Shown piece by piece: positions 18,032-43,850 of a stretch of DNA of 64,000 bases. A program made the position numbers and the translations under genes. Source of the stretch: Lachnospiraceae bacterium (GTDB lineage Bacteria > Bacillota > Clostridia > Lachnospirales > Lachnospiraceae); assembly GCA_017543445.1 (NCBI GenBank), contig JAFYGB010000069.1, positions 1 through 64,000 of the forward strand, read 5' to 3'. The notes beneath the pieces are model-generated. The model was not told the DNA's origin. It saw nothing but the letters and a program-made list of their open reading frames with translations, and ran no database searches. The stretch's first letter is position 1. Every line of letters starts with the position of its first letter.

Positions 18032-19228
18032 ATGAAAATTACGGTAGCTGGTGTTGGGTATGTAGGTCTTTCTCTGGCGGTGCTTTTGGCGCAGCATCAT
18101 GAGGTGACGGCGATCACGACTACGGAGTCGAAGGCGGCGAAACTGAATCAGTTTATCAGCCCCATTCAGGATGATGAGATCGAGCGTTTCTTCCGGGAGG
18201 TGAAGGAAGGAAAGAGGAAGCTGAACCTGTTTACGACCACGGATAAGGCGGCGGCCTATGGATCGGCGGATCTGGTTATTATCGCGACGCCGACGAACTA
18301 TGACGACGAGCATCATTTCTTTGATACTTCGGCGGTTGAGGATGCGATCGAGCAGACACTGGCGGTGAACCCGAATGTATTGATGGTAATTAAGAGCACC
18401 ATTCCGGTGGGATATACGGAGTCGGTGAAGCAGAAATATGGAATTAAGAATATCATTTTCAGCCCGGAGTTTCTTAGAGAGTCGAAGGCACTCTACGATA
18501 ACCTCTATCCCAGCCGTATCGTTGTCGGTGCGGAGGAGGATCAGATCGAAGAGGCGCAGATGTTTGCTGATTTGCTTCGTGAGGGCGCAGACGGTAAGAA
18601 CGTGAAGACCCTTATTACTCGTCCGACTGAGGCGGAAGCGATAAAACTGTTTGCAAATACATACCTTGCAGTGCGTGTATCTTACTTCAATGAGCTGGAT
18701 ACATATGCACAGTCGAAGGGACTGGATACGCAGATGATCATTGATGGTGTTTGCATGGATCCGAGAATTGGCAGCCATTATAATAATCCGTCGTTCGGAT
18801 ACGGTGGTTACTGTCTGCCGAAAGATACGAAGCAGCTGCTGGCGAACTATAAGGACGTTCCGCAGACCATGATCGAGGCCGTGGTGAAGTCCAATGAAGT
18901 TCGTAAGGATTTCATAGCGGAGCAGATTTTGGAGCGTAATCCTAAGGTGGTCGGCGTGTATCGTTTGACCATGAAGAGCAACAGCGATAATTTCCGCGCA
19001 TCGGCGATCCAGGGCGTTATGAAGCGCATCAAGGCCCAGGGCGTCCCGATCATTATCTATGAGCCTACCTTAGAGGATGGAAGCACGTTTTTTGACTCGG
19101 TAGTGGTCAATGATCTCGATAAGTTTAAGAGCGAGAGCGATGTGATCGTGGCTAACCGGTTTGACGAGGAGAAACTGGGTGATGTAACCCTGAAAGTATA
19201 TACTCGAGACCTGTTCCGGAGAGACTAG
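18032..19228 (+). CDS. ugd: UDP-glucose 6-dehydrogenase-like enzyme (short Ugd type)
   Basis: I choose the ATG at 18032 (398 residues): GGAAAGGA lies upstream and the protein then starts directly with the Rossmann strand [19 protein letters not shown]; 22 extra codons upstream would add a non-homologous tail. Motifs include [26 protein letters not shown], and GGYCLPKDT with catalytic Cys261. Short Ugd enzymes (~390 residues) oxidise UDP-glucose to UDP-glucuronate with two NAD+. The product could feed the polysaccharide as GlcA. It differs from the second dehydrogenase at 19687, whose motifs fit UDP-GlcNAc. A strong promoter precedes and a terminator follows, so it is probably monocistronic. 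Confidence 0.88.
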
Positions 19229-19258
19229 TCAAGTTACTTTGTTGAATAAATCATAGCG

Positions 19259-19294
19259 AAGCGGAGGCGCCCCTCGTGGGGGCCTCCGCTTTTC
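19259..19294 (+). terminator. Rho-independent terminator
   Basis: AAGCGGAGGC...GCCTCCGCTT with additional inner GC pairs, followed by TTTCTTATTT. Confidence 0.9.
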
Positions 19295-19323
19295 TTATTT
19301 CCACCTTCCCCAATATTTTACGA

Positions 19324-19352
19324 TTGCATTTCCCCTGCCTAACCGATATAAT
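19324..19352 (+). promoter_or_regulatory. Strong sigma-A promoter for the small membrane protein
   Basis: TTGCAT (19324-19329), 17 bp, perfect TATAAT (19347-19352), 30 bp upstream of the start codon at 19383. Confidence 0.7.
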
Positions 19353-19382
19353 AAAAGTAGTATCGTTGAAGGTAGGCTCCAG

Positions 19383-19601
19383 ATGAAAAAGCGTGGAAAG
19401 AAAAAGTGGATAGGGATTATTGCTGCGGCAGTCATGGTTTTGGCTGCGGCGGCGGTTTTTGCGTGGAAGTATTTGGGGGACAGGGAGCCAGAGGTGCCGG
19501 ACCTGGATGTAAAGCAGTGCGAGGCTATGCAGGTTCTGTACAAGGGCAGTCATCCTCTTAGAAGTGTGCAGATGAACGACGATATCGTGGTGAAGAGATA
19601 G
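19383..19601 (+). CDS. Small membrane-anchored protein (72 residues)
   Basis: The product has a basic N-terminus (MKKRGKKKW), one membrane helix (~10-29) and a 43-residue outer tail ending DDIVVKR. No family is recognised. Its first ~35 residues and the matching DNA resemble the start of the lipoprotein gene at 21111 (MKKNGKKKW, same spacing to an Ala/Val helix), so it may be a shortened relative of that EF-hand/LRR protein or share its membrane module. It has its own good promoter and lies between a terminator and the next promoter, which supports a real, separately expressed gene. The ribosome site (AAGGTAGG) is acceptable but 9-10 bases away. No function is proposed. Confidence 0.5.
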   Translation: MKKRGKKKWIGIIAAAVMVLAAAAVFAWKYLGDREPEVPDLDVKQCEAMQVLYKGSHPLRSVQMNDDIVVKR

Positions 19602-19630
19602 TTGAAATCACGGTGCGGTTATGGTATAGT
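19602..19630 (+). promoter_or_regulatory. Sigma-A promoter for the UDP-GlcNAc dehydrogenase gene
   Basis: TTGAAA (19602-19607), 17 bp, TATAGT (19625-19630). The -35 begins directly after the stop codon of the small upstream gene. Confidence 0.65.
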
Positions 19631-19686
19631 TATAAACAGTCCGAAATGGATGGACTAGAGCAATACTTGAGGAGAGTAACAAAATC

Positions 19687-21006
19687 ATGAATACGTATGA
19701 AAAACTGGTTGCAAAAGAGTCGAAGTTGGCACTCGTTGGTCTGGGCTATGTGGGAATGCCGATCGCTGTGGCATTCGCCAAGCACGTCAATGTAATCGGA
19801 TTTGATACGAACAGCGCGAAGATCCAGCTCTATAAAAATGGCATCGATCCGACGCATGAGATCGGCGATGACGGCATTAAGACTACGACCGTGGATTTTA
19901 CGGATGATGAGACACGGCTTAAGGAGGCGGATTTCGTTATCGTTGCGGTTCCGACGCCGGTAAATAACGACCATACGCCGGACCTCACACCGGTCGAGGG
20001 AGCCAGCCATGCGGTTGGACGAAATCTCCGAAAGGGTGCGATCGTTGTTTATGAGTCTACAGTTTATCCCGGAGTTACCGAGGATGTCTGCGTTCCAATC
20101 CTGGAAGCAGAGTCCGGACTGAAATGTGGCGTGGATTTCTGGGTAGGATATAGTCCGGAGAGAATCAATCCGGGTGATAAAGTTCATCGACTTGAGAATA
20201 TCAAGAAGATCGTTTCCGGTATGACACCGGAGTGCTGTGCAGAGATCAAAAAGGTCTATGATCTCGTTATTGAGGTCGGCACTTATCCTGTTTCAAGCAT
20301 TAAAACAGCGGAAGCGATCAAGGTGGTGGAAAACAGCCAGCGTGATATCAATATCGCGTTCATGAATGAATTGGCCATGGTTTTCGACCGTATGAATATC
20401 GACACAAATGAAGTTGTTGACGGTATGAATACCAAATGGAATGCATTGGGCTTCCGTCCCGGTCTGGTGGGCGGCCATTGCATCGGTGTCGATCCTTACT
20501 ACTTCACGTATGAGGCAGAAAAACTCGGTTACCACAGTCAGATCATTCTGAATGGCCGTATCGTGAATGACGGTATGGGCGCTTTTGTCGCGGATGCCGC
20601 GATCAAGCAGATGATCCTCGCCGGAAAGAATGTCCGCGATGCGAAGGTGGTGATCCTGGGACTTACATTTAAAGAGAATTGCCCGGATACGAGAAACAGC
20701 AAGGTGGAGGACATCATCGTACATCTTAACGAATACGGTATTTCGCCGGTCGTTGTAGATCCCTGGGCGAATAAAGACGATGCGCTTCGTGAGTACGGCG
20801 TTGAATTGAAGGGACTGGACGACGCGAAGCAGGCCGATTGCATTATCGTTGCTGTAGCTCATAACGAATTCAAAGCGCTGAACCTCGATGATATCAAGGC
20901 ATATTATAGAACTATGCCGGACGAAGAGAAGGTTCTGATCGACGTTAAAGGATTATATGCGATCGATGATCTGAAGGCTTCCGGAGTGCGCTTCTGGAGA
21001 CTGTGA
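19687..21006 (+). CDS. UDP-N-acetylglucosamine 6-dehydrogenase, WbpA/TviB-like
   Basis: The 439-residue protein has the nucleotide-sugar dehydrogenase layout: LALVGLGYVGMPIAVAF (NAD site), VAVPTPVNNDHTPDL, YESTVYPGVTED, GYSPERINPGD, and GGHCIGVDPYY with catalytic Cys265. The VPTPV, YSPERINPG and HCIGVDPYY forms are those of WbpA/TviB enzymes acting on UDP-GlcNAc or UDP-GalNAc, unlike the Ugd at 18032. It would make UDP-GlcNAcA, the substrate of the WbpB-like dehydrogenase at 11260, which completes the route to UDP-GlcNAc(3NAc)A although it is transcribed separately. GAGGAGAG precedes the ATG. Its own promoter and terminator make it monocistronic. Confidence 0.88.
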   Translation: MNTYEKLVAKESKLALVGLGYVGMPIAVAFAKHVNVIGFDTNSAKIQLYKNGIDPTHEIGDDGIKTTTVDFTDDETRLKEADFVIVAVPTPVNNDHTPDLTPVEGASHAVGRNLRKGAIVVYESTVYPGVTEDVCVPILEAESGLKCGVDFWVGYSPERINPGDKVHRLENIKKIVSGMTPECCAEIKKVYDLVIEVGTYPVSSIKTAEAIKVVENSQRDINIAFMNELAMVFDRMNIDTNEVVDGMNTKWNALGFRPGLVGGHCIGVDPYYFTYEAEKLGYHSQIILNGRIVNDGMGAFVADAAIKQMILAGKNVRDAKVVILGLTFKENCPDTRNSKVEDIIVHLNEYGISPVVVDPWANKDDALREYGVELKGLDDAKQADCIIVAVAHNEFKALNLDDIKAYYRTMPDEEKVLIDVKGLYAIDDLKASGVRFWRL

Positions 21007-21023
21007 TCACAGAATGTTTTAGA

Positions 21024-21064
21024 TAAAGCCGGGAGGCCCATCATCAGGACCCTCCGGCTTTTGT
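21024..21064 (+). terminator. Rho-independent terminator
   Basis: AAAGCCGGGAGG pairs imperfectly with CCCTCCGGCTTTT, followed by TTGTT. It separates the polysaccharide genes from the LRR operon. Confidence 0.75.
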
Positions 21065-21110
21065 TAAAAGTATCGGGCTCGTTCGAAATAGGTGTTAGGA
21101 AGGACGCTAG

Positions 21111-22253
21111 ATGAAGAAAAACGGAAAGAAAAAATGGATATGGATCATCTCTGCGGCGGCCGTGGTTGCGGTCGTGGCGGTGATTTTGGCGTGCATGTCT
21201 TCTCGTGGTGAGGAGCCAAAACTGACTGCGGTCACTATCGACGAAGAGCATTTTCCGGATAAGTATTTTCGGGCCTATGTTTCCCTGCGCTATGATGAGG
21301 ATGGGGATGGTGTGCTGAGCGGAGACGAACGACGGAAGGTGAAGGAGCTCTTGATATCCGAGATGAAGATCAGGGATCTGCAAGGGATCGAATACTTTCC
21401 GAAACTGAGAATACTGGAATGCAAAGATAATATACTCAGAAACCTGGATCTGAGCCGTAACACCGATCTGCGGGAACTGAACTGCAATTATTGTAGCCTC
21501 GAAAGTTTGAACGTGAGTAACCTCTCGGAACTTCGGATACTGGTCTGCCGTGGGAATGAACTCGTACAACTGGATGTTAGCAGCAACAAAAAACTGCGCC
21601 ATTTAGAGTGTGTTGACAATGACCTGACAACGTTGGATATACATCATAACACAGCGCTGGTGAGGTTGGAGTGTAGCGGCAACGATCTAACGAGTCTGGA
21701 TGTGAGCGGATGCGCGAATCTGGCTGCGCTCGATTGCGCTTATAATGACCTGACGAGCCTGGATCTGGGTCGGTGCAAGAAATTGAGTGACCTCGAATGC
21801 ACGGGGAATGAACTGACAGACCTGAATGTGAGCAGATGCGCGAATTTGTCGTACCTTAAATGCGGCAATAATAAACTTACAAGCCTGGATGTGACTAAGT
21901 GTAAGAAACTTAAGGATTTTACTTGTAATGGTAATGAGCTGGGGAGCCTGGATGTAACCAAGTGTCCGGAATTAGAGAGCCTCGATTGCGGTAATAATAT
22001 TCTGACGGCTCTGGACCTATCACGGTGCCCGAAATTATCGTACCTCGATTGCAGAGTGAATAAATTGACGGCTCTGGACGTGTCACAGTGTCCGAAATTA
22101 GAGAAACTCGTATGCGCCTATAATCAACTCACGCGGCTGGATCTGACTGCCTGCACGGGATTAGAGACGCTTGAGTACAATGGAAACCCGATGACTCAAC
22201 AGGATATCATCGGATATACGTGGACCGATGGTTGGAGAGATTGGTACCGATAA
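21111..22253 (+). CDS. Putative lipoprotein with EF-hand-like loop and 13 leucine-rich repeats
   Basis: The 380-residue protein starts with a basic stretch and a helix ending ILAC (residue ~31), a plausible lipobox. Residues 45-80 contain HFPDKYFRAYV followed by an EF-hand-type loop, D62-E-D-G-D66-G-V-L-S-G-D-E73, with acidic residues at positions 1, 3, 5 and 12. From ~100 to ~370 there are 13 repeats of exactly 21 residues with the pattern LxxLxCxxNxLTSLDVSxCxx. The Cys-rich repeats resemble the Treponema/Bacteroidales type of secreted LRR. It is the first gene of an operon with 22279 and 23590, which share the EF-hand plus LRR unit. The function is unknown; protein or ligand binding in a Ca2+-dependent fold is inferred. 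Confidence 0.8.
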   Translation: MKKNGKKKWIWIISAAAVVAVVAVILACMSSRGEEPKLTAVTIDEEHFPDKYFRAYVSLRYDEDGDGVLSGDERRKVKELLISEMKIRDLQGIEYFPKLRILECKDNILRNLDLSRNTDLRELNCNYCSLESLNVSNLSELRILVCRGNELVQLDVSSNKKLRHLECVDNDLTTLDIHHNTALVRLECSGNDLTSLDVSGCANLAALDCAYNDLTSLDLGRCKKLSDLECTGNELTDLNVSRCANLSYLKCGNNKLTSLDVTKCKKLKDFTCNGNELGSLDVTKCPELESLDCGNNILTALDLSRCPKLSYLDCRVNKLTALDVSQCPKLEKLVCAYNQLTRLDLTACTGLETLEYNGNPMTQQDIIGYTWTDGWRDWYR

Positions 22254-22278
22254 TGGTGTTGACTGCATAGGAGGAAGC

Positions 22279-23571
22279 ATGAAGAAAGCAATGGTTTGGA
22301 TCGGTGTGGCGCTCGGTGTGGCGCTGGGCTCGGTCGGATGCAGTGATAGGAAAGCGACGTTGGGAAACGATATTCCTATAACATCCGAGAATTTTCCGGA
22401 TGAAGTATTTCGGAAATATTTGGCGGATGAATTTGATTTAGATAAAAGCGGAACCTTGGAAGAAAGCGAGCTCCAAGAGGTCCGGAAGGTCGGACTAAAG
22501 GATTCGGACTTAAGTAGCCTCAAAGGGGTCGAACTTCTTACGAACCTGGAGACCTTAACGATCGAAAACGGACATATAGAGGAGCTGGATGTGAGTGCCT
22601 GTAAGTCGCTCAGAAAACTCGAATGTGACGTTGGGCACCTGAGGCAATTAACGGTGAACGGATGTGAGACATTGGAAGAACTGAGCTGCTTTTGGAATGG
22701 CCTTATGAGTCTCGACGTGAGCCAGTGTTCCAGACTGAAGAGACTCTATTGCAACGGAAACCAGTTGCAAAGCCTGAATGTTAAGGGGTGTTTTCGACTG
22801 GAGGAGTTAAACTGTGGATCCAATAATCTCACGAGCCTGGACGTGAGTGGCTGCGATGCGTTACGATGGCTCGAGTGTTACAGTAATTTCCTGAAAGAGC
22901 TGGATAAAAGCGGATGTGTTTTGCTAGAGTACCTGGACTGCAGCGGTAACGAACTGAGCACATTGACCGTGAAGTATAATACGAAGTTGAAACATTTAGA
23001 CTGCGCCAGAAACGATCTGACCAGTCTGGATGTAAGTGCGAATACCGCTCTGCAGTACCTGATCTGCTGGACCAACGAGATAACCGAGTTGGATCTCCGC
23101 AGGACCACAGAATTGGTTTATTTGGATGTTTCGAGTAACCCGATCAGCGTTTTGGATGTGAGTTGGAATCCTGAACTGTTGGATCTGATCTGCTACCATG
23201 CATCTCTGCAGGACTTGGACCTGCGGCAGAATACGAAACTATCGAGACTGGAATGTTACGATAATCGCTTGTCGAAATTGGATGTGAGTCAAAATACTGC
23301 GTTGGCTACGCTGTATTGTTCCCAAAATCAGTTGCAAGAGTTGGATGTGAGTCATAACCCTTCGTTGACCAGTTTGGACTGCTATGAGAACGAATTGAGC
23401 CAACTGGATGTCGGAAACTGTCTTTGGTTGTATGGTGTAACTGTAGATCCGGATGTTTTGGTTGTCGGAGCCGAAGAGAATGATGTCAGTGTTAATCGAT
23501 ACGAAAAAACTTGGGAAGAGTCGAATGACTCGCCGTATATTCGGGAGACGTTTCCGTATATAATATATTGA
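22279..23571 (+). CDS. Putative lipoprotein with EF-hand-like loop and 14 leucine-rich repeats
   Basis: I place the start at the ATG at 22279 (430 residues) because GGAGGA lies immediately upstream; an upstream in-frame ATG at 22228 overlaps the previous gene and would bury the signal peptide. The product has a signal ending GSVGC (Cys21, atypical lipobox). The EF-hand-type loop starts at D53 (DLDKSGTLEESE), preceded by NFPDEVFRKYL as in the paralogs. About 14 LRR units of 21 residues follow, then a 40-residue tail with VDPDVLVVGAEE, a motif also found at the end of the Ig/LRR protein at 27989. It lies 25 bp after the first LRR gene and 18 bp before the sigma/LRR fusion. Confidence 0.8.
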   Translation: MKKAMVWIGVALGVALGSVGCSDRKATLGNDIPITSENFPDEVFRKYLADEFDLDKSGTLEESELQEVRKVGLKDSDLSSLKGVELLTNLETLTIENGHIEELDVSACKSLRKLECDVGHLRQLTVNGCETLEELSCFWNGLMSLDVSQCSRLKRLYCNGNQLQSLNVKGCFRLEELNCGSNNLTSLDVSGCDALRWLECYSNFLKELDKSGCVLLEYLDCSGNELSTLTVKYNTKLKHLDCARNDLTSLDVSANTALQYLICWTNEITELDLRRTTELVYLDVSSNPISVLDVSWNPELLDLICYHASLQDLDLRQNTKLSRLECYDNRLSKLDVSQNTALATLYCSQNQLQELDVSHNPSLTSLDCYENELSQLDVGNCLWLYGVTVDPDVLVVGAEENDVSVNRYEKTWEESNDSPYIRETFPYIIY

Positions 23572-23589
23572 GTGAGGTCTTAGCATAGA

Positions 23590-25341
23590 ATGTTGAATGA
23601 TAGAGAGATCCTCCGGTTGTTTGAGAAGCACGACGAACGTGCGCTGATGGAGACGACCGCGAGATATGAAACGTATTGCCGAACGATCGCGCATACGTTA
23701 TTGGGAGAAGAGTCGGCTGCGAAGGAATGCTTTCGCGAGGCTTTGCGTGATATCTGGAAGAACATTCCCCCGAAGAATACCGAGAGTCTGAAGACCTACA
23801 TGGGAAAACTGGTACGTGCCGAGGCTTTGAAATACAGGGAAGAAGAGGCACCGGTCGCGAATGAAGAAGAGATCGCGGCGATCCTCGAGGAACTGGAAGA
23901 ATGCGTAGAAGAAGGCTTTTCGGGGGCGGAAAACCGCGACGCGGATGATGGCCTCGTGGAAGTGATCGATGACTTCCTGGCGTCCGTGCCTGCTTCGAAA
24001 CGAAGCCTCTTCGTGCAGAGATACTGGTATGGACAGACGATCTGGTCGATCGGTGCGAAGCGTCATATGTCTCCGGATCTGGTCGATGCCGGGATTTCGG
24101 AGGTGCGCGCCGGGCTCGCACAGGCGTTTCAGGAAGCGAAGACGGTATGGCCCCTGGATGGGAAAACGTTTCTGATGGAACGGATCGGAGGTATCGATCC
24201 CAAGTATATTCTGGAGGCAGAAGGAGCGAAGACGGGCTCCGAAGGCGCTCAAAAGGCCGCTGCTTCCGGCGAGCGGATGGATGACGACGAGGAGAACGAT
24301 GAAAGAAGAAAGCCGGTAGATGCAAAGAAGATCCTGAAGATCGCTTGCATCGTGGGCGGAGTACTTGCGGTCGTAGCCTTGATCGTTGCGATCCGGTGGA
24401 CGTCAAACACTCCGATCCCGATCGATGAAAAGCATTTTCCCGACGAGTATTTCCGAGAGTATGTAGCGGAGGGGTTCGATCTGGATAAAGACGGGGAACT
24501 CTCCGTGGAAGAGCGACAGGATGTTTTTAAGATCGAACTCGTGAGCACCCGTTCTAATCCCTATTATGCCAACAACATAGGGGATATTCAAAGTCTGAAG
24601 GGGATCGGGTATTTTCCGAATTTGGAGTATTTGAAATGTACCGGGACGCAAGTGACGAGTTTGGACCTGAGCGCGAATAAGGCGCTGGAGACGCTGATCT
24701 GCAGCGATGGGAAACTGGAGAGTCTGGATGTCAGTGCGAATAAGGCGCTCGAGTATTTGGACTGCTCCGGAAACCAACTGACCAAACTGGACGTTCGGTC
24801 GAATAAGTTGTTGGAAGAACTCGACTGCCGAAACAATCAGATCGAGGAAATCAAGTTTCGGTCGAATGAGACATTGAAGACGCTTTCGTGTCAGGATAAC
24901 CTGCTGGGGCACCTGGATGCGAGCCCGAATAAGGCGTTGAAGACGCTCAACTGCTCCAAAAACCAAATGACCGAACTGGACCTGAGTGAGAATAGCAAAC
25001 TCGAGGTCTTCAGTTGTACGGGGAGCTCTCTGATGGAGCTGGATCTCAGTGGGAATCCTGCGATGAAGTGGGTCGAATGTTCCGGCAACCAGATCCATCA
25101 GCTGAATGTACACGAGAACCCGCTGCTGGAGGTGCTCGGCTGCGATGATAATGAATTGTTGGAACTGGACCTGAGCCAAAACACGAAATTGACCTCGCTT
25201 AGCTGTGAGAATAATTCCTTAACGAGTCTGGACTTAAGAAGTTGCGCGGATCTGGCCCATCTGTATATGGAGGGAAACCAGATCCGGGTACTGGAGTTGA
25301 ACGACCCAATGATAAACCATCTCATAACGTTGTTTGACTGA
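23590..25341 (+). CDS. ECF-sigma-like / anti-sigma-like / membrane / EF-hand-LRR fusion protein
   Basis: This 583-residue protein has four parts. Residues 1-~85 match a sigma-70 region 2-type domain (RLFEKHDERALMETTARY, CFREALRDIWKNIPP, LVRAEALKYREE). Residues ~125-184 match region 4 (FLASVPASKRSLFVQRYWY, then an HTH-like helix), in the style of short ECF factors of Clostridia. Residues ~194-215 (GKTFLMERIGGIDPKYILEA) resemble the start of the membrane protein that usually follows such sigma genes. After an acidic linker comes one membrane helix (~249-270) preceded by RRKPVDAKK, giving cytoplasmic N-terminus and outside C-terminus. Outside are an EF-hand-type loop (D297-E308) and 11 LRRs of 21 residues. 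The recognition helix (SPDLVDAGISEVR) is acidic, so DNA binding may be weakened. A membrane-held sensor/regulator is inferred. Domain calls are by eye. Confidence 0.75.
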   Translation: MLNDREILRLFEKHDERALMETTARYETYCRTIAHTLLGEESAAKECFREALRDIWKNIPPKNTESLKTYMGKLVRAEALKYREEEAPVANEEEIAAILEELEECVEEGFSGAENRDADDGLVEVIDDFLASVPASKRSLFVQRYWYGQTIWSIGAKRHMSPDLVDAGISEVRAGLAQAFQEAKTVWPLDGKTFLMERIGGIDPKYILEAEGAKTGSEGAQKAAASGERMDDDEENDERRKPVDAKKILKIACIVGGVLAVVALIVAIRWTSNTPIPIDEKHFPDEYFREYVAEGFDLDKDGELSVEERQDVFKIELVSTRSNPYYANNIGDIQSLKGIGYFPNLEYLKCTGTQVTSLDLSANKALETLICSDGKLESLDVSANKALEYLDCSGNQLTKLDVRSNKLLEELDCRNNQIEEIKFRSNETLKTLSCQDNLLGHLDASPNKALKTLNCSKNQMTELDLSENSKLEVFSCTGSSLMELDLSGNPAMKWVECSGNQIHQLNVHENPLLEVLGCDDNELLELDLSQNTKLTSLSCENNSLTSLDLRSCADLAHLYMEGNQIRVLELNDPMINHLITLFD

Positions 25342-25397
25342 GAGTGAGAACGCCCGTTCCCGCTGAAAATGGTACAAATAGGTGATATACAAACGCT

Positions 25398-25447
25398 CTG
25401 CCTGCATTTATACTTAGAATGTATAAATGTGGGCAGGGTGTTTTTTT
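25398..25447 (+). terminator. Rho-independent terminator of the LRR operon
   Basis: CTGCCTGCATTTATA pairs with TATAAATGTGGGCAG (9-base loop, small mismatch) and is followed by GGTG and seven T. Confidence 0.8.
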
Positions 25448-25505
25448 CCTCTTCACAAGGTGTATACACGAAATAACAAAGGAGATAGCAAAGGAGAAAA
25501 AACAG

Positions 25506-25715
25506 ATGAAGAAAACACTGGTTGCGTTCTTACTTGTAGTTCTGAGTGTTATCCTGGCGCCGAGCCGGACCGCCTATGCGGCAGATGTCGATTCGTTGAA
25601 AAACGGGGACATCGTGGAGTTTGGAATGTATCCGCAGAAACGCGTTACGGATCTGGATCTGATCGCAGAACTCGATGATGTGGCGAAAAAACTGGAAAGC
25701 GTACCCGTATCATAG
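25506..25715 (+). pseudogene. N-terminal fragment of frameshifted DUF6273/FN3/Ig surface gene
   Basis: A signal peptide (MKKTLVAFLLVVLSVILAPS...AYA) is followed by DVDSLKNGDIVEFGMYPQKRVTDLDLIAELDDVAKK, the usual opening of a DUF6273 domain. The frame then ends four codons after a run of six A (within 25684-25690). Skipping one A would join it to the next fragment as VAKNWKAYPYHSKN, which fits the family's pattern. It is therefore the start of one ~819-residue protein split over 25506-27967. A real mutation, phase-variable tract or assembly error cannot be told apart here. The strong AAAGGAG site precedes the ATG. Confidence 0.7.
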
Positions 25716-26283
25716 TAAAAACACCGCGGAAAATCACCATAAAATTCCTGCGGTGCAGGATAATTCCATGATGAAGTTTGCGGATTTCACGTACAACAAC
25801 AAGAAATACCGCGCTGTGAAGATTCTGAAGTATAGACCGGGAACGGCCGATATGTTACCGGGGACTGCAGATGATCCAAAGGGGAGTCAGTACGAGAATG
25901 GGTTCCGCCTCGGGGTCTGTTATTTTGAGTATGAGCCGATCCGCTGGGTCATCGTGGATAAGTCACAGGGGCTTCTGGTCTCCGATAGTATTTTGGATTC
26001 ACAGCCTTTTGAGCCGAACTATGTCGAGGAGTATATCGGCTATGCTCAGTATGATTACAGATCCAGGATTCGATCCGATATATACCCGTCGAATTATCTG
26101 TATTCATCGCTTCGGTTTTGGCTGGCCGGCTACACAGATCATTATCCCGAATATGAGTATTTCAATTTTTATCGCACGGCATTTACTTCCAGTGATATGA
26201 GCTGGATCAAGACGACTCAGTTAACGATCAAAAGCAATGGTGTGACGGATAGTGCATATGGACTCTATATTCCTTCTGGATAG
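25675..26283 (+). pseudogene. Middle fragment of frameshifted DUF6273 gene
   Basis: In the +1 frame the DUF6273 core continues: FADFTYNNKKYRAVKIL, FEYEPIRWVIVDKSQGLLVSD, ILDSQPFEPNY, SSLRFWLAGY, FYRTAFTSSDMSWIKTTQL. The frame stops at 26283; the domain resumes in the next frame with DSIFLLDRETV, so a second single-base insertion lies between about 26246 and 26265. This second site has no homopolymer. There is no ribosome site for independent translation, and the ATG-like codons at the left end lie inside the preceding fragment. Confidence 0.7.
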
Positions 26284-27967
26284 AGAGACGGTGGACGCGT
26301 ACACGTCTTCCACGGGTCAGCCGTTCTATTCCGCGTATCCGACCGCATATGCGAAGTCGCAGGGCTATACTTACGATGACATTGACTTTTTATGGTGGCT
26401 CCGGGATGGATATGGATCGACTACCATGTATTATGTCAATGACGGGTACACTTGCAATGGATATCAAGTGGGCCACGGAAGTATACTTCAAACCAATTAT
26501 TCATTTGTCGGCGTACGTCCTGCGATCCGTGTGAATCTGTCCAGCAGTTTAATAAAGCGTTCATTTCAGATCGATGTTGAAAGGTCTACATCGGGGGCTC
26601 CGACGATTTCCTGGCCTTCTCAGGGGGCGTCCGCGACATATAGAGTATATCGCTGTGATGAATTAAAAAGAGATCAGACCCTGGATAGCGACTGGACTCT
26701 TATGGCAACCCTCGCGCAGAATACGCTCAGTTATACGGACACGACCGCGAGGCCGGGTTACGGATATTATTATCGTGTTGTTGTGACGCAATGGAACATA
26801 GTTAATAAGTCCAACATGATACTGTATAGATACAAGCTTGAGAAACCCAGAATGGTTTATGCCGGTTCGGATGAAACGACCGGTTATCCGAAACTGTGCT
26901 GGATGCCCGTGAATGCGGTCCTCCACTATGACATCGAGAGATATAACGAAGATAAAGACGAATGGGAAAACGTGTGGCGTATCGAACCGGAAGGCTATGA
27001 CATGGTGGAATATATAGACAAAAAGGCCACCTTAGGAAAGCAATACACGTACAGAGTACAAGCGTGTCCCCCGACATTTGAAAGGTTCCGATCAGATTAT
27101 ACGGACGAAGCGACCATCAAATGTGTACCCGAAAAACCGACAGGCTTATCGGTAAAGATCACTTCCGCCGGGATGATCCAATTAGCTTGGAATGCCGTAA
27201 AGGCTGACGGTTATCGGGTTTTGTATAGAGACATCACGGACGGTTATTCCACTTCCAATCAGTGGTACAGCAGCTACGTCTATGCGGGTGGGTGTATCCT
27301 CTCAAAGGCCCAGCCCGGCAGAAACTATGAGATCCTGGTGGCTGCGGCGATGTCCCAAAACGACAATACCTATGATTCGGCGAGGGTAAGTGTAACGCAG
27401 AGGTGTCCGAGCCTGCCCGAGTTTACGGTTCAACCGAAGAATATAATAGCATTTGAAGATACAAATCCGATTCATGTTGATGTTAAGGTAAGCGCAAGCG
27501 GAACCGGAATCACCTACAAATGGTATACATTCCGCCCCGTGGTCGACAGCGGCAGCTTTACGATGGAGTATACCTGTACCGATGGTAAGTATGGGTTTGA
27601 CCTGACCCGGGAAGAAAGTGAAATGCAGTTCTATGTGCAAGCAGTGGATCAGTATGGCAGAAGCACTTATTCCGATACCGCAAAGGTTGCATACATTAGC
27701 CAGCCGAAAGGCGTTACGGCCAATGTAGGAAATGAGGCGCAGTTCACGGTTACGACGGATTTCCCGGAATTTATCGCTTCTTATCAGTGGCAGTCGCGTA
27801 AGGATTCTTCGAGCGCATGGTCGAACTCCGGCCTGCCGGGTGCGAAGACGGCGACGCTTACGGTAAACGCGGTTTCAGGCTTAAACGGCTGGCAGTTTAG
27901 GTGCGTCGTAACGGACGGTAACGGAATGAAGTGGGGATCAAATCCCGCAACATTGACCGTGAAATAA
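26246..27967 (+). pseudogene. C-terminal fragment: end of DUF6273, FN3-like domains, one Ig-like repeat
   Basis: This third frame is open from 26246 and encodes ~570 residues. It begins with the end of DUF6273 (DSIFLLDRETV, FLWWLRDG, FVGVRPAIRVNL). About three fibronectin-III-like segments follow (TYRVYR...YYYRVVV, YDIERYN...YTYRVQA, PTGLSVK...GYRVLYR). The end is an Ig-like region whose last part, YQWQSRKDSSSAWSNSGLPG to ATLTV, is almost identical to the Ig arrays at 446-8376. If the two frameshifts were repaired, the gene would encode a signal-DUF6273-FN3-Ig protein of ~819 residues. The Ig/LRR gene at 27989 starts 21 bp after the stop. As it stands the fragment lacks a signal peptide and is unlikely to be exported. 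Confidence 0.7.
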
Positions 27968-27988
27968 TGTAACACAGAGGATAAAGAA

Positions 27989-30175
27989 ATGAATAAAGGT
28001 TTGTTAAGACGGTTGCTGGCGGTTATGATGACAGCAATCTTGGTGGTGGCGCTGCTTCCGAGCGCCTGGTTTGGTGGAGCGGTTTATGCGGACAGCATAC
28101 CGGGGCCGGTCATTACGACCCAGCCGACCGATAAGGCGGTGGTGATCAATAGTGTTGCACAGTTTACGGTGGCGGCAAAAGGCACAGGTACACTGACCTA
28201 TCGCTGGCAGTCACGTAAGAACGAGTCGTCCTCTTGGTCGAATACCGGCCAGAGCGGTGCGAATACGGCGACACTTTCTGTGTCTGCAACAGGTGCTCTG
28301 CACGGTTGGCAGTTCCGTTGTGTAGTATCGGATAGCACAGGCGAGAAGGCATACTCGAACGCGGCGACATTGACCGTAAAACCGAAGATCGATACGCAGC
28401 CGGTGGACGCTTATGCTCCGGCTGGCACCACGGCGAATTTTACGGTGGCGGCGACAGGAACAGGTACGGTATCCTATCAGTGGCAGTCTCGTAAGAACGC
28501 GTCGGCGACATGGAACAACTCCGGCATGCCGGGCGCGAAGACGGCGACTCTGTCGGTAAATACTTCCAGCGGGCTGCATGGCTGGCAGTTCCGTTGCGTC
28601 ATTACGGATGGAAACGGACAGCACGCATTTACGAATGCTGCGACCGTATATGTAAAACTGGCGATCGTTGCACAGCCGAAAAACACGAGCGCGACCGCAG
28701 GTGCCACAGCGCAGTTTACGGTAAATGCGATCGGTAAGGAACCGTTTACCTATCAGTGGCAGTCCCGCAAGAACGCATCGGGCACATGGTCGAATTCCGG
28801 CCAGAGCGGAGCGAAGACGGCGACCCTCTCGGTACAAACGGTTGCAGGTTTAAACGGCTGGCAGTTCCGCTGCGTGGTAAAAGATGCGACCGGACAGACG
28901 GTGGTTTCCGACGCGGCGACGCTCGCCATCGTTCCGAAGATCACGACCCAGCCGGCGAATGCAAGTGTGGCCGTTGGTTCCACAGCGAAATTCACGGTGG
29001 CGGCGACCGGTAAGGCAAACCTTACCTACCAGTGGCAGTCTCGTAAGAATTCTACGAGCGACTGGTCGAATTCCGGCCAGAGCGGAGCGAAGACGACGAC
29101 ACTGTCGGTAAATGCGATCGCCGGATTAAACGGCTGGCAGTTCCGCTGCGTCGTAACCGATGGCAACGGACAGAAATCCTACTCCAATGCGGCGACACTG
29201 AACGTAACGCCGAAGAGCACGAAGCAGCCTGCAAATGTGAAGGTATCCGTTGGTTCCGTTGCACAGTTTACGGTAGCGGCGACCGGTAAGACACCGTTTA
29301 GCTATCAGTGGCAGTCGCGTAAGAATGCATCGGCATCCTGGTCGAATTCCGGTCAGACGGGTGCGAAGACGGCGACCCTGTCGGTAAATACGATCGCGGG
29401 CTTAAACGGCTGGCAGTTCCGCTGCGTGGTCACAGATGGTAACGGACAGAAGGCGTACTCAAATGCGGCAACCTTAACGGCCGTAGTTGAGAATATCCCG
29501 ATCAATGAGACGAATTTTCCGGATGCGGTATTCCGTGAACTCGTCGCGCGGTACTTCGATACCAATCAGGATGGTGCTTTCAGTGTAGAAGAATTGAAGC
29601 AAGTGAAACTGATCCATGTGCCGCAGGCAGGCATCACGAATATGAAGGGCCTCGAGTTCTTCACTTCTTTAGAGACTCTCGTGTGCTACTCCAACAGTGT
29701 AGGAACCCTGGACCTGAGTAAAAACACGGCATTGAAATCATTGGACTGCTCCGGTATGAAGTTGACATCGTTGAATCTGAGAAACAACAAGGATCTCGAA
29801 TACATCGATTTTGGTTTCAATAATATTGAATCTGTGGACCTCAGCAATAACACGAAACTCACGAAGCTGTACTGTGCGAATACTGGCCTGAAGACTCTGA
29901 ATCTGGCGAGCCTGACGGAGTTGCAAGACTTATATTGCTATTATAACCAGTTGGAAGAACTGAGTGTCTCGAATTGTAAGAAACTGCTCACTCTCCACTG
30001 CCATTCAAATAAATTGAAAGAATTGAATTTGAGTGCTAACACGGCATTGACCGATCTGGCATGCCACATCAATCAGATAACAAAGCTCGACCTGACAGCG
30101 AACACGAACCTGACGAAGCTCTCCGTCGATCCCGATGTTGAAGTGATCGGTGCGGATGGTCTCTTGAATAAGTAA
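27989..30175 (+). CDS. Secreted protein with five Ig-like repeats, EF-hand-like loop and seven LRRs
   Basis: The 728-residue protein starts with a signal peptide (MNKGLLRRLLAVMMTAILVVALLPS..., cleavage near VYA|DS). Residues ~41-500 are five Ig-like repeats, three of them nearly identical to repeats 20 kb upstream. Then comes NFPDAVFRELVARYF with an EF-hand-type loop starting at D524 (DTNQDGAFSVEE) and seven 21-residue LRR units, ending VDPDVEVIGADGLL. This single gene joins the two surface modules of the window: Ig arrays of 1-8 kb and EF-hand/LRR of 21-25 kb. AGAGG lies before the ATG. It may be co-transcribed with the disrupted gene upstream. No anchor motif is seen. A ligand-binding or adhesion role is inferred. 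Confidence 0.85.
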   Translation: MNKGLLRRLLAVMMTAILVVALLPSAWFGGAVYADSIPGPVITTQPTDKAVVINSVAQFTVAAKGTGTLTYRWQSRKNESSSWSNTGQSGANTATLSVSATGALHGWQFRCVVSDSTGEKAYSNAATLTVKPKIDTQPVDAYAPAGTTANFTVAATGTGTVSYQWQSRKNASATWNNSGMPGAKTATLSVNTSSGLHGWQFRCVITDGNGQHAFTNAATVYVKLAIVAQPKNTSATAGATAQFTVNAIGKEPFTYQWQSRKNASGTWSNSGQSGAKTATLSVQTVAGLNGWQFRCVVKDATGQTVVSDAATLAIVPKITTQPANASVAVGSTAKFTVAATGKANLTYQWQSRKNSTSDWSNSGQSGAKTTTLSVNAIAGLNGWQFRCVVTDGNGQKSYSNAATLNVTPKSTKQPANVKVSVGSVAQFTVAATGKTPFSYQWQSRKNASASWSNSGQTGAKTATLSVNTIAGLNGWQFRCVVTDGNGQKAYSNAATLTAVVENIPINETNFPDAVFRELVARYFDTNQDGAFSVEELKQVKLIHVPQAGITNMKGLEFFTSLETLVCYSNSVGTLDLSKNTALKSLDCSGMKLTSLNLRNNKDLEYIDFGFNNIESVDLSNNTKLTKLYCANTGLKTLNLASLTELQDLYCYYNQLEELSVSNCKKLLTLHCHSNKLKELNLSANTALTDLACHINQITKLDLTANTNLTKLSVDPDVEVIGADGLLNK

Positions 30176-30187
30176 CTAACGTTGAAG

Positions 30188-30249
30188 CAAACCAGCTCAG
30201 ACGCAGGATGTACCTAACCGGGTGCATTCCGTCTGAGCTGGTTTGTTTT
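30188..30249 (+). terminator. Rho-independent terminator
   Basis: CAAACCAGCTCAGAC pairs perfectly with GTCTGAGCTGGTTTG across a 28-base loop that contains a smaller hairpin; TTTTA follows. Confidence 0.8.
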
Positions 30250-30284
30250 ACTGTCGATTGGGACTGGTCTTTTGTGCGAAAATG

Positions 30285-30293
30285 TGATATAAT
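30285..30293 (+). promoter_or_regulatory. Extended -10 promoter for the GH51 gene
   Basis: TGATATAAT: perfect TATAAT at 30288-30293 with the TG of an extended -10. No good -35 is visible, which fits an activator-dependent or extended -10 promoter. Confidence 0.55.
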
Positions 30294-30363
30294 AATTGGG
30301 TCCGGGTCTATCTGAAGGATCCGTTTGGACGTGTGAAAAAATAATGTATTGAAGGAGAAAAGA

Positions 30364-31962
30364 ATGAGTAAAGATGCAAAGATCACGATTCATCCGCTGT
30401 ATCAGATCGGTGACATCAGTAACCGTCTGTTCAGTACGTTTTTGGAGCCCATCGGCTCCATGGTCAATGGAACCATGTACAACCCGAAGCATCCCACCGC
30501 GGATGAGGAGGGCTTCCGTACCGACTTCATCGACGCCCTAAAGGTGACGGGCATGCCCGCCTGCCGTCTGCCCGGTGGTAACTTCGTATCGGGCTGGGAC
30601 TGGAAGAATTCCATTGGCCCGAAGGATCAGCGGAAGATCGCTCTGGACCCTGCGTGGTACCAGTATTACACAAACCAGGTAGGACACGATGAGTACCTGC
30701 ACTGGGCGGAGAAAGTCGGCACCGAGCCGCTGTACACAGTGAACCTCGGCACCGGCGATATGCGCGACGCCATGGCGATCGTGGAGTACACGAACCATGA
30801 AGGTACCAGCTGGTGGGCAGAGCAGCGTAAGAAGAACGGCCACGAGAAGCCTTACGGCGTAAAGATGTGGTACCTGGGTAATGAAATGGACGGCCCGTGG
30901 CAGTTGGGTTCCTGGGAGAAGGATCCGCGCGGCTACGGCATCCGTACGAACGAAATCTCTAAATTGGTAAAATGGATCGACCCGAGCATAGAAACCGCCG
31001 TGTGCGGCTCCTCAGCGCCATTTATGGCACATTTCCCGCAGTGGGAAGAGGATGTTTTGAATGAGTGCTACGAATCCGTGGATTATCTGTCCGTGCACCA
31101 CTATCATGTGGCGCCTCCGGGAGACCTGAAGGCTCTGTTGGGCGGCTCGCTGTACTATGAGGATTTCATCAACACCGAGGTCGCTTTGTGTGACCTGGTC
31201 GCTGCGAAGATGCGCAGCCCGCATAAGGTGAATATCTCCTTCGACGAGTATGGTTCGATGGTTCGCCCGCTTCGTGAGCTGAACCCCGGCTACGGCCCGC
31301 ACAACCTGTACCGTGCACACTATCGTTTCGACCCGACACGTAAGTACATCATGCACGATCCGGATAATATGCGTGACTTCCATTTCCCGGGCGGCGACAT
31401 GATCCGTGCCCTGTCTATGGCGACGGTTCAGTTGGCGCTGCTGCGCCACGCAGACCGCGTAAAGATCGGTTGTATGACCGGCGGTCTCGGCGCACTGTGT
31501 GCTTCCAACCACGACCATGTTTGGAGGTCTGCTTCCTACTATCCGTTTAAGCATTTCATCGATTATGCGAAGGGTGTTGCCCTCAACACAGCAGTAGAGA
31601 GTGAAACCTTTGATATCCCCGGCTACATCATCGACGATACGTCCGAGTATCCGACGAAGGAAGGCGTTCCTTACATTGATGCAGCATCCGCCTGGGATAA
31701 AGAGGCCGGTCGCGTGGCAATCTTCGTAGTCAACAAGAGCGAGGCTGACGAGTATCCGTTGACGATCGACGCTTCCGCTTTCGAAGGCTATTCGTTCAAG
31801 GAGCATCTGGAGATGTATTCCGAGGATCCGGAGGCGGAGAACACGTTCGAGAACCCGGATGTTGTGAAGCCTACGATCGCACCCGACGCGGTTGCAGAAG
31901 ACGGCAAGATCAAGACCCATGTAAAGCCACTGTCCTGGAATTTGATCATTCTGGAGAAGTAA
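30364..31962 (+). CDS. Alpha-L-arabinofuranosidase, GH51
   Basis: I use the ATG at 30364 (532 residues), with AAGGAG 7 bases upstream. The protein fits the GH51 (beta/alpha)8 barrel plus C-terminal beta domain: RLPGGNFVSGWDW near the N-terminus, WYLGNEMDGPWQLG with acid/base Glu174, and ISFDEYGSM with nucleophile Glu295, about 120 residues apart as in the family. There is no signal peptide, so it acts in the cytoplasm, releasing terminal arabinofuranose from imported arabinoxylan oligosaccharides by a retaining mechanism. It is followed 1 bp later by a DUF6518 membrane protein gene. GH43, GH115 and CE1-type genes within 35 kb support a xylan role. Specificity for xylan rather than arabinan side chains is inferred. 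Confidence 0.92.
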   Translation: MSKDAKITIHPLYQIGDISNRLFSTFLEPIGSMVNGTMYNPKHPTADEEGFRTDFIDALKVTGMPACRLPGGNFVSGWDWKNSIGPKDQRKIALDPAWYQYYTNQVGHDEYLHWAEKVGTEPLYTVNLGTGDMRDAMAIVEYTNHEGTSWWAEQRKKNGHEKPYGVKMWYLGNEMDGPWQLGSWEKDPRGYGIRTNEISKLVKWIDPSIETAVCGSSAPFMAHFPQWEEDVLNECYESVDYLSVHHYHVAPPGDLKALLGGSLYYEDFINTEVALCDLVAAKMRSPHKVNISFDEYGSMVRPLRELNPGYGPHNLYRAHYRFDPTRKYIMHDPDNMRDFHFPGGDMIRALSMATVQLALLRHADRVKIGCMTGGLGALCASNHDHVWRSASYYPFKHFIDYAKGVALNTAVESETFDIPGYIIDDTSEYPTKEGVPYIDAASAWDKEAGRVAIFVVNKSEADEYPLTIDASAFEGYSFKEHLEMYSEDPEAENTFENPDVVKPTIAPDAVAEDGKIKTHVKPLSWNLIILEK

Positions 31963-31963
31963 G

Positions 31964-32599
31964 TTGGATATGTTAGAGAAGATCCGTGCCCCGAAGGAGG
32001 GTGTTTCCAAACAGCGGCAGATCCTGTATTCTGTGCTGATATTTTTATTCGGCTGTGGGATGGGCTTTTTTTCGAAGGCGCTGGACTTAGCGGGGTTCAA
32101 TGAACTGCCGTATTTTATGCAGCGACTGGATATCACGAATTTCTTGGGAAGATTTGCGATCTGGATCTTCATCGCGGTGTGCATTTCGGTCTACAGCAGT
32201 AATGCTTTCCGAGCGGCGTTGAATGTATTTTTGTTCTTCATCGGGATGGTGACTTGCTACTTCCTGTATTCGAAGTTTGTGGGAGGCTTCTTCTCACGAA
32301 ACTATGCGATGATCTGGTATGGTTTCACGGCGGCCTCGCCGTTCCTGGCTTTTGCGTGCTGGTACGCGAAGGGTAAGGGCTGGCCGGCGATCGCGATCAC
32401 GGGAGCCATCATCGGCGTTCTGTTCTCGCAAGCGGTCTTTTTGTTTCAAGGCATCCGGATCGCGCATTGGACGGAAGTGATCGTCTGGCTGGCTTCCTTG
32501 TGGGTCCTGCGGCGAAAGCCCAAAGAGTTTTGTTACTCGCTTGGCATAGCACTGGTCGTAGCGCTGATCGTACAGAAATGCCTGCCTTACTGGGGTTGA
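31964..32599 (+). CDS. DUF6518-type integral membrane protein
   Basis: The ~211-residue protein has about six membrane helices. LYSVLIFLFGCGMGFFSKALD, FAIWIFIAVCISVYSS, FLFFIGMVTCYFLYSKFVGG, MIWYGFTAASPFLAFACWYAKGKGW match what I recall of the DUF6518 family. Function is unknown. The TTG at 31964 is 7 bases after GGAG and one base after the GH51 stop, which suggests translational coupling; an ATG at 31970 is the alternative. The C-terminal end is cytoplasmic-basic then hydrophobic. A dyad terminator follows. Transport cannot be claimed from the sequence. Confidence 0.75.
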   Translation: MDMLEKIRAPKEGVSKQRQILYSVLIFLFGCGMGFFSKALDLAGFNELPYFMQRLDITNFLGRFAIWIFIAVCISVYSSNAFRAALNVFLFFIGMVTCYFLYSKFVGGFFSRNYAMIWYGFTAASPFLAFACWYAKGKGWPAIAITGAIIGVLFSQAVFLFQGIRIAHWTEVIVWLASLWVLRRKPKEFCYSLGIALVVALIVQKCLPYWG

Positions 32600-42674: not shown

Positions 42675-43850
42675 ATGATTCCCAGACAGGCGAGTGATTC
42701 GGTAAAACGGTTAGCACAACAATTCCCGGTGATCGCAATCACAGGGCCCAGACAGAGTGGAAAGACTACGTTAGCCAGAATGGTGTTTCCGGAGAAACGA
42801 TATGTCTCTTTTGATGACAGGCAGCTTCGTGAACTCGCAAAAGATAATCCCTTGGATTTTTTGAGCGCATTTACAGATGGCGTGATCATAGATGAAGCGC
42901 AGAAGGTTCCGGAACTGTTTGACGCTTTGAAATTGATCATTGATAACGGCGCGCATGTTCCCGGTAAGTATGTACTGACCGGATCCAGTCAGTTTCGATT
43001 ACGCGAAAACATAACGGACAGTTTAGCCGGACGGGTTGGATTAGTGAAACTTCTGCCGTTTTCGGTCAATGAATTGAAGGCTGAGAAACTCCTACCTGAC
43101 TCACCTTACGATCTGGCCATCCGAGGGTTTTATCCTCCGCTTAACGATCCGCAAAAGAATTTTCTTCGGGATGACTGGTATGAAAACTATATAAATACCT
43201 ATTTGGATCTGGATGTGAAAGACCAGATCAATCCGTCGAATTTGGCAGCATTTCAAAAGTTTGTCCGCGTATGTGCGGTATACAGTGGACAGATCCTGAA
43301 CTACGAAGAAATATCCAGAGACATCGGTGTTTCCGGAGTTACGATAAAATCCTGGGTGTCTATTCTTGAAGCATCCTATATTGTTCATTTGCTGGAACCT
43401 GATACAAATAATCTCGGAAAGAGTTTGGCAAAAACACCGAAGTTATACTTTGTTGATCCCGGCTTACTTTGTTATTTGCTTAGGATCGACAGTAAAGAAG
43501 AATTGCTGCTTCACAGCAAAAAAGGAGCCATCATAGAAACTATGGCGGTTTCGGAACTACTTAAGCATCGTTATAATATGGCGAAAAGATCGGAATTGAC
43601 CTATTACAGAGACAGCACTGGATTGGAAGTTGACGCAATCGCTGATTGGAAGAGACAGTTCGCTATTGAAGTAAAAAGCAACATGGCTTCGGAGAAAAAA
43701 CTCTCAGTAGGGGTGCGCAAATATCAGGCACTTCGAGGAGAGAACGTAACCGGGTGTGTTTTCTATTTAGGGGACCTCAGTTGCAATATTGATGGAATTC
43801 AATATGTTTCCTGGAGAGACTGGGGCGATTTTGATTGGAAAGAGGTTTAG
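42675..43850 (+). CDS. AAA_14 / DUF4143-family ATPase
   Basis: The 391-residue protein starts with the AAA_14 module: ITGPRQSGKTTLAR (Walker A), VSFDD, GVIIDEAQKVPELFDALK (Walker B and switch), LTGSSQFRL and SLAGRVGLVKLLPFS. The C-terminal half is DUF4143: DLDVKDQINPSNLAAFQKF, then a winged-helix-like NYEEISRDIGVSGVTIKSWVSILEASYIV, and a nuclease-like fold with YYRDSTGLEVDAI and FAIEVKS. That last part resembles a PD-(D/E)XK pattern (E-x-D ... E-x-K). Proteins of this family are common, often mobile and poorly characterised; a restriction or toxin-related role is a guess. The AAGAGAGGTG site precedes the ATG. It ends 4 bp before the PepC-type gene. Confidence 0.85.
   Translation: MIPRQASDSVKRLAQQFPVIAITGPRQSGKTTLARMVFPEKRYVSFDDRQLRELAKDNPLDFLSAFTDGVIIDEAQKVPELFDALKLIIDNGAHVPGKYVLTGSSQFRLRENITDSLAGRVGLVKLLPFSVNELKAEKLLPDSPYDLAIRGFYPPLNDPQKNFLRDDWYENYINTYLDLDVKDQINPSNLAAFQKFVRVCAVYSGQILNYEEISRDIGVSGVTIKSWVSILEASYIVHLLEPDTNNLGKSLAKTPKLYFVDPGLLCYLLRIDSKEELLLHSKKGAIIETMAVSELLKHRYNMAKRSELTYYRDSTGLEVDAIADWKRQFAIEVKSNMASEKKLSVGVRKYQALRGENVTGCVFYLGDLSCNIDGIQYVSWRDWGDFDWKEV

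Follow-up and report, generated by a model that had tools for sequence, protein, structure and literature searches.

A gene in a 64,000-nucleotide stretch of a Lachnospiraceae genome (hereafter the window, meaning the whole stretch that was analysed) encodes a single chain made of a sigma-like domain, an anti-sigma segment, one membrane helix and an outer domain of the EF-hand/LRR kind. We explain its product, with moderate confidence in the explanation as a whole, as a one-chain membrane receptor with a sigma-shaped, protein-binding cytoplasmic module that would have lost DNA reading, and not as a membrane-tied transcription factor; in the same explanation, a sigma gene and the membrane anti-sigma gene overlapping it probably fused once, in the ancestor of part of the genus. 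The confidence is moderate mainly because relaxed selection, divergence of the operon and gene turnover in two other members of the genus (G002 and G003) favour a vestige. Support shown at the level of sequence comprises the fusion, the single clade of the fused sigma parts, the loss of DNA-reading residues, the absence of a self-promoter and the relaxed constraint.

Architecture and distribution of the fused gene

Altogether 583 aa are encoded by one unbroken frame (Table 1), and the full frame recurs in two orthologs, in agreement with the preliminary description of the window, which had proposed a single protein made of these parts. The EF-hand loop and the LRRs are readable directly in the sequence. 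The one membrane helix expected after the anti-sigma element is compatible with a helix predicted by AlphaFold at about residues 245-272, and the same model places two helices in the anti-sigma segment (191-199 and 204-226). All three fused proteins have a WPxDGK junction; in paralogs, a stop codon that overlaps the following start occupies this place. ATG, GTG or TTG codons near the junction in all three are candidate internal starts for a separate anti-sigma/LRR protein; no clear ribosome-binding site for such a start was seen by eye in the three fused genes.

Table 1. Features of the fusion locus in window coordinates; residue numbers refer to the fused protein
Feature	Position	Strand	Evidence
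Upstream gene 1 (EF-hand/LRR protein, membrane-anchored), conserved in position in G001 and G005	21111..22253	+	ORF, Pfam, synteny
Upstream gene 2 (LRR lipoprotein), overlapping gene 1 and conserved in position in G001 and G005	22228..23571	+	ORF, Pfam, synteny
Whole fusion: sigma-like domain, anti-sigma segment, membrane helix and EF-hand/LRR outer domain	23590..25341	+	Open frame; fused orthologs L054 and L055
Sigma2-like domain, residues 1-85	23590..23844	+	Pfam, NCBIfam, AlphaFold, fold search
Region 2.3-2.4 equivalent, residues 66-98	23785..23883	+	Column comparison with unfused relatives
Sigma4-like domain, residues 121-184	23950..24141	+	AlphaFold, fold search; Pfam r4_2 in ortholog L054
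Recognition-helix equivalent, residues 162-176, net charge -2	24073..24117	+	Column comparison
Junction WPLDGK, residues 187-192	24148..24165	+	Comparison with fused orthologs and paralogs
Anti-sigma segment, residues 191-226	24160..24267	+	AlphaFold and profile search
Membrane helix, residues 246-272	24325..24405	+	AlphaFold and sequence comparison
EF-hand-type calcium loop DLDKDGELSVEE, residues 297-308	24478..24513	+	Sequence
LRR array, 21-residue repeats, about residues 346-571	24625..25302	+	Pfam LRR_4, E 3.9e-22

The fusion was found in three of six genus genomes. The two orthologs, L054 (568 aa, in G005) and L055 (567 aa, in G001), come from MAGs titled Lachnospiraceae bacterium RGIG7973 (water buffalo rumen) and RGIG7558 (omasum); they represent two other species of this rumen genus, at 51-53% identity and in the same operon. 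Among the matches listed for 397 family and 392 order genomes, with at most six candidates scored per genome and G001 and G005 standing outside the listed genomes, the window's own protein is the only one that reads through the junction with no stop. A second fusion suspected in G007 (an open frame of 624) was rejected, as the sigma frame stops at 186 aa and a separate in-frame gene, presumably serpin-like, follows. A search for viral relatives gave ten pattern matches, none of which was confirmed.

The tree covers 49 unfused and 3 fused sigma domains, 52 in all; for it, and for the column counts given below, L087 and L090 were left out of the 37 loci and identical sequences were merged. In this tree the fused sigma parts form one clade with support of 100/100. 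Its stem measures 2.01 changes per site vs a median of 0.18 for the end branches. The clade lies inside the genus radiation, at a fork with support of 94/84, which is below the level that the tool marks with a star.

Sigma kinship, predicted fold and anti-sigma segment

Sigma regions 2 and 4 had been assigned to residues ~1-184, an assignment that relatives and fold support, the curated profiles that match the window copy doing so below their cut-offs. Residues 1-187 matched the NCBIfam models TIGR02985 (E 3.2e-9) and TIGR02937 (E 5.5e-8), both below the curated cut-off; in the Pfam scan, the window fusion matched Sigma70_r2 at E 0.008, likewise below the cut-off, and gave no region-4 match. 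The Sigma70_r4_2 cut-off of 25.7 bits was exceeded by ortholog L054 (28.9 bits) and not reached by L055 (21.3 bits), and neither ortholog matched the r2 domain in Pfam. The same scan of four unfused relatives gave Sigma70_r4_2 matches above the cut-off (E 1.5e-9 to 9.7e-12), and three of the four passed the r2 cut-off as well. Weak or partial matches in the three fused proteins, set against clear ones in unfused relatives, indicate that the sigma kinship is real and the domain degenerate. The window's own genome contains 11 further matches to the sigma part at 10 loci (best E 6.5e-35), and as a matter of sequence its kinship to intact sigma genes is beyond chance. As to the lack of a significant sigma profile match, which the preliminary description had named as a refutation, the match is weak in the curated models and strong through the relatives.

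Structure prediction, proposed there as a check, agrees with this kinship. The AlphaFold model, which covers residues 1-280 and was built from 29 sequences, has a mean pLDDT of 79.6 and a pTM of 0.58. A Foldseek search of the PDB placed ECF sigmas first, many of them in complexes with anti-sigmas: AlgU-MucA, SigW-RsiW, sigma-E-RseA, RpoE-NepR and polymerase-bound ECF sigmas headed the list (E 2e-4 to 1e-3 for the first ten), though whole-chain TM scores were low, at 0.20-0.33 by query length among the first 20. The sigma4 domain alone reached a TM of 0.80 by target length to 3hug, and the CnrH/CnrY entry had rank 25. The model supports retention of the ECF-sigma fold in the predicted structure of the fusion.

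The GGIDPKYILEA element, previously described as the usual start of a neighbouring anti-sigma-type membrane protein, was recovered in all three fused proteins by a profile of 47 distinct unfused anti-sigma N-termini (E 2.4e-6, 3.7e-6 and 1.7e-5). All 900 shuffled segments scored worse, the best at 0.056, and on this profile evidence the element is a true anti-sigma N-terminus. In the anti-sigma genes of the genus, the first ~36 residues follow the consensus MSK......LM..IGEI.EKFI.EAEYTE.EL (15 aligned), and a membrane helix and varied outer domains (EF-hand/LRR, DUF6273 or VWA) come next; since EF-hand/LRR is among them, the fusion has an outer domain of a kind that is normal for the family. 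Residues 185-245 of the window fusion have no Cys or His, and no zinc-binding motif of the ECF52/53 type is found there.

A search of the own genome with a 15-sequence anti-sigma profile, which misses the known partner at C44:53627, gave seven strong starts, all adjoining sigma genes. Below these came the fusion (E 1e-4), two weak known pairs (C6 and C70) and one weak match inside a gene labelled by eye as LacI-like. With this one profile, no orphan anti-sigma that could partner the fusion was found in the own genome. The short anti-sigma type of the fusion family occurs in other Clostridia too.

A search for homologs with and without the fusion, also suggested earlier, returned the two fused orthologs and, as paralogs, unfused pairs. 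The nine intact-frame relatives in the own genome each share their last four bases, stop included (ATGA), with the beginning of a membrane anti-sigma-like gene, and the six closest are 35-37% identical to the sigma part of the fusion. The same overlap occurs in 28 of 29 unfused pairs collected by script, the remaining pair having a gap; the sigma frames of this set were picked by a text filter, and it lies apart from the fused L054 and L055. Across the named genomes, 33 of 37 loci overlap in this way, and the other four are the two fused orthologs, one locus with another spacing and one that is cut. Pairs of the genus such as C27, C44, C47 and C3 in the own genome (G000) share the anti-sigma motif of the fusion, several of them with the same LRR outer domain, but consist of two genes overlapping as ATGA, have intact DNA-reading residues and mostly possess a self-promoter.

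Two side observations concern the unfused genes. At L018 (G000:C63:15042-15607) an unfused sigma gene is seemingly split over two frames, which match residues 1-133 and 129-187 of the query. At L050 (G007:C49, 3436-7161) a family sigma gene is followed by a gene that we take to be serpin-like, and then by an anti-sigma-like gene with an outer part resembling that middle gene.

Promoter-reading residues, self-promoter and selection

Columns were counted as conserved when at least 85% of 49 unfused sigmas agreed and as lost when none of the three fused proteins kept the residue. With region boundaries set by us (1-60, 61-98, 99-121, 122-160 and 161-187), the losses amount to 4 of 21 columns in region 2.1-2.2, 7 of 9 in region 2.3-2.4, none of 3 in the linker, 1 of 8 in region 4.1 and 3 of 7 in region 4.2. 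Regions 2.3-2.4 and 4.2 differ from the rest at Fisher p 0.002 (0.003 without the linker), columns being treated as independent. Lost columns 64, 74, 180 and 184 (P64, I74 to Leu, L180 to Phe, and G184) are not among the established DNA contacts, and the changes at 74 and 180 are conservative.

The position of the -10 Asn (N88 of sigma-H and presumably N80 of sigma-E) holds Asn in 45 of 49 unfused sigmas and D, E and A in the fused proteins, Ala77 being the residue of the window fusion. In sigma-H, N88 wedges the -10 element open, and N88A impairs transcription (PMC6411747). The equivalent of sigma-E R176, which contacts the first G of the -35 element (PMC6713349), is Arg in 48 of 49 unfused relatives and A, G and E in the fused proteins (Glu171 in the window); the R178 equivalent is kept in all. 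Within the stretch of residues 66-98, acidic and neutral residues of the window fusion stand in place of the basic KRGGG of the paralogs. Unfused proteins carry a net charge of +2 to +8 over residues 72-98 and of +1 to +6 over residues 162-176, and fused ones of -1 to -3 and -2 to -3, respectively, so the acidic recognition helix noted earlier is a property of all three orthologs. Judged from these columns, the sigma part seems to have lost promoter recognition and to be a degenerate sigma-like domain of the PhyR type. Region 2.1-2.2 is otherwise mostly kept, but N49 in region 2.2, present in 49 of 49 unfused sigmas, is Arg in all three fused proteins, and R14 and G27 (49 of 49 unfused each) are changed as well; these changes suggest that binding surfaces may have drifted and that polymerase binding may also be altered.

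Upstream of most unfused sigma genes lie TGTAA[G/C]-TTT, a gap of 12-13 bases and [C/G]G[A/T][G/C]TATATAGGTGAAAG, or in short form TGTAA..TATAGGTGAAAG. A matrix of this promoter gives more than 10 upstream of 38 of 47 unfused sigma genes; the regions scored are those from which the matrix was derived, the orthologs among the 47 are not independent, and some come from other families. No self-promoter was found by the matrix before the fused operon, with best scores of -3.5 in the window, -6.2 in L048 and -1.8 in L049. This absence is supporting and not decisive, because unfused C47 and C6 genes of the own genome also belong to the nine of 47 in which the matrix fails, together with the C47 relatives L044, L064 and L067. 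Three shuffled 64-kb windows gave matrix maxima of 16.1, 13.0 and 13.5, and the real window has its best score, 14.5, at 43820. The strict pattern occurs seven times in the own genome vs zero in the reversed control, six times before sigma genes and once before another gene. By eye, housekeeping-type boxes (TTGCAT-17-TATAAT) stand before the fused operon in L048 and L049, and none as clear was seen in the window. Elsewhere, at L014 (G000:C47), a family-type promoter site at 3982-4024 stands before a non-sigma ORF (4154-5335) that by eye looks secreted and is a candidate regulon member.

Selection was compared by dN/dS (Nei-Gojobori with Jukes-Cantor), which is near saturation for pairs with the window. 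Among the three fused proteins dN/dS is 0.26-0.30 for the sigma part (0.20-0.24 for sigma2 and 0.37-0.38 for sigma4) and 0.24-0.65 for the anti-sigma segment; six pairs of unfused sigma orthologs, mostly of lower dS, gave 0.04-0.20. Constraint on the sigma part is by this comparison relaxed but present.

The faster evolution of the sigma part and the missing self-promoter would suit a vestige, in which only the membrane-anchored LRR outer domain works and the sigma/anti-sigma remains are a tail or anchor on the way out. Such a state also accords with the lack of a fused match in G002, G003 and G004, and with the gene at the syntenic site of G002 (L111, G002:C22, 1843-2862, minus strand), a frame of 339 aa that keeps the membrane helix and LRR and has no sigma part. 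The anti-sigma motif GEIDETYFSDAE of L111 (a GEID motif) lies in frame, ahead of the first usual start codon. The sigma module is dispensable, as this gene indicates. We nevertheless consider a vestige rather unlikely: three species keep the sigma part open at dS of about 0.6-1.2 with the dN/dS given above, where a free tail should drift more, and the losses cluster in regions 2.3-2.4 and 4.2 and are not evenly spread.

Functional readings, known parallels and the surrounding locus

The receptor reading takes the sigma part as a protein-binding module, because promoter reading was selectively lost while the fold and the anti-sigma segment were kept, much as in PhyR. The preliminary description had offered as one alternative that the sigma part had given up DNA binding for protein binding; its first half is favoured by the loss of -10 and -35 contacts in all three proteins and by the missing self-promoter, and its second half, the protein-binding function, we infer by analogy. 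At rest, the sigma-like domain would lie packed against the anti-sigma segment of the same chain, in the manner of sigma/anti-sigma complexes. When a ligand binds to the LRR face, the chain might be changed or cleaved, and the freed sigma-like domain would then act by contact. The most plausible contact would be capture of the anti-sigma segment of a paralogous pair, with release of that sigma according to PhyR logic, and core RNA polymerase would be a less likely one. As to the binding target, the most conservative guess is the segment in the same chain, and the most interesting one would be the anti-sigma segments of sister systems. The full chain of events, in which the LRR face senses a ligand and a promoter-blind sigma mimic captures sister-system anti-sigma segments and so frees their sigmas, is put forward only tentatively and with low confidence. 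If true, a Gram-positive lineage would have a counterpart of PhyR that is bound to the membrane and consists of one chain, derived from a sigma gene fused with its own inhibitor. Binding of sister anti-sigmas would mean that a transcription factor was turned into the output domain of a receptor, a case of sigma mimicry independent of PhyR.

PhyR of Alphaproteobacteria captures the anti-sigma NepR with a sigma-like domain whose promoter and core-polymerase regions are degenerate (PMC8103513). The fusion resembles it in having a sigma-like domain degenerate in promoter binding inside a sensor protein. PhyR is, however, a response regulator with a receiver domain; no Pfam match to such a domain was found in the fusion chain, the C-terminal half of which is membrane helix and LRR, and NepR-like capture is here a possibility suggested by the likeness.

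The other alternative raised earlier, a sigma factor tied to its membrane sensor and freed by proteolysis, is known elsewhere and fits the fusion less well. In IutY of Pseudomonas putida (ECF243), a working sigma is freed by Prc and RseP; release is demonstrated for IutY and proposed for ECF52, as far as PMC8999054 describes them. The fusion likewise has an ECF sigma domain with a membrane-bound anti-sigma part C-terminal to it in one chain, but differs from IutY in the missing DNA-reading residues, the EF-hand/LRR outer part and the Lachnospiraceae host. ECF52 (SCO4117 of Streptomyces coelicolor), ECF53 and ECF48 also combine a sigma, a C-terminal anti-sigma-like part and one or more membrane helices, with an outer sensor in ECF52, but come from Actinobacteria and have a zinc-finger anti-sigma domain, according to PMC8999054 and PMC5826349, and the outer domain of the fusion is another one. 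Given that sigma, anti-sigma segment, membrane helix and outer domain stand in one chain in three genomes, as in the IutY/ECF52 type, a working ECF sigma with changed promoter specificity, tethered and freed by regulated intramembrane proteolysis, has to be weighed. The architecture of those known fusions (PMC8999054, PMC5826349) and the kept sigma fold in AlphaFold and Foldseek agree with it, unfused relatives vary at several recognition-helix positions, four of the 49 have no -10 Asn either, and some unfused sigma genes are also without self-promoter. We regard it as unlikely in view of D, E and A at the -10 wedge and A, G and E at the -35 Arg, which are no common new solution among the orthologs, and of the acidity of both DNA-facing surfaces and the missing self-promoter. 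An artefact, that is a frameshift or assembly join of two genes, can be dismissed almost entirely, despite the separate genes in nearly all other pairs of the family: three separate MAGs have the fused frame, the junction and the operon order in common at 51-53% identity, the same fusion and operon in two other species argue against an assembly error, neither a frameshift nor an assembly join was found, and separate sigma and anti-sigma genes, the refuting observation named beforehand, were seen only as paralogs.

In its predicted helices, the short two-helix segment of the fusion may also resemble class II anti-sigmas such as CnrY, which has two helices (PMC7406223). In titles and abstract beginnings, the main ECF reclassification standing outside the comparison, no LRR anti-sigma system of Lachnospiraceae or rumen was found. 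The parallels are IutY, ECF52 and PhyR, and the combination of features in the fusion is new. The genus offers a natural experiment: beside an ancestral-type pair it has the fusion and one further loss, with a readable shared promoter and, in the own genome, nine sister pairs that are still intact. The fusion could also serve structural studies of the short anti-sigma type as a naturally covalent sigma/anti-sigma pair.

The genes around the fusion turn over as well. Both upstream LRR genes had been described as lipoproteins; this stands for gene 2, which alone has its N-terminal signal-type Cys in all three genomes. Gene 1 keeps a hydrophobic N-terminal stretch in the two orthologs, without a Cys there, and "membrane-anchored" is therefore its better label. 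The genomes of L054 and L055 keep both upstream genes and one nearby gene, presumably arabinofuranosidase-like, which is 93-98% identical in the five other genus genomes. At window positions 19000-32000, the LRR operon is flanked on one side by genes that we take to be UDP-sugar dehydrogenase-like and on the other by genes of Ig-repeat/LRR secreted proteins, the content of which differs between members of the genus; the stretch is a variable surface-protein locus. The corresponding stretch of G003 has only LRR matches, within an Ig-repeat gene, and the site comparison was made without G004, the contig of which begins 110 bases before the neighbouring gene. DNA identity of the window to G001 is ~69% over the whole operon and 85-91% in the flanks. 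The fused frame of G001 stops some 20 residues short, and the two genomes are nearly identical at the 3' end of this gene and in the sequence after it (about 25100-25480 of the window vs about 4780-5060 of L049), a sign of recombination or of mosaic assembly.
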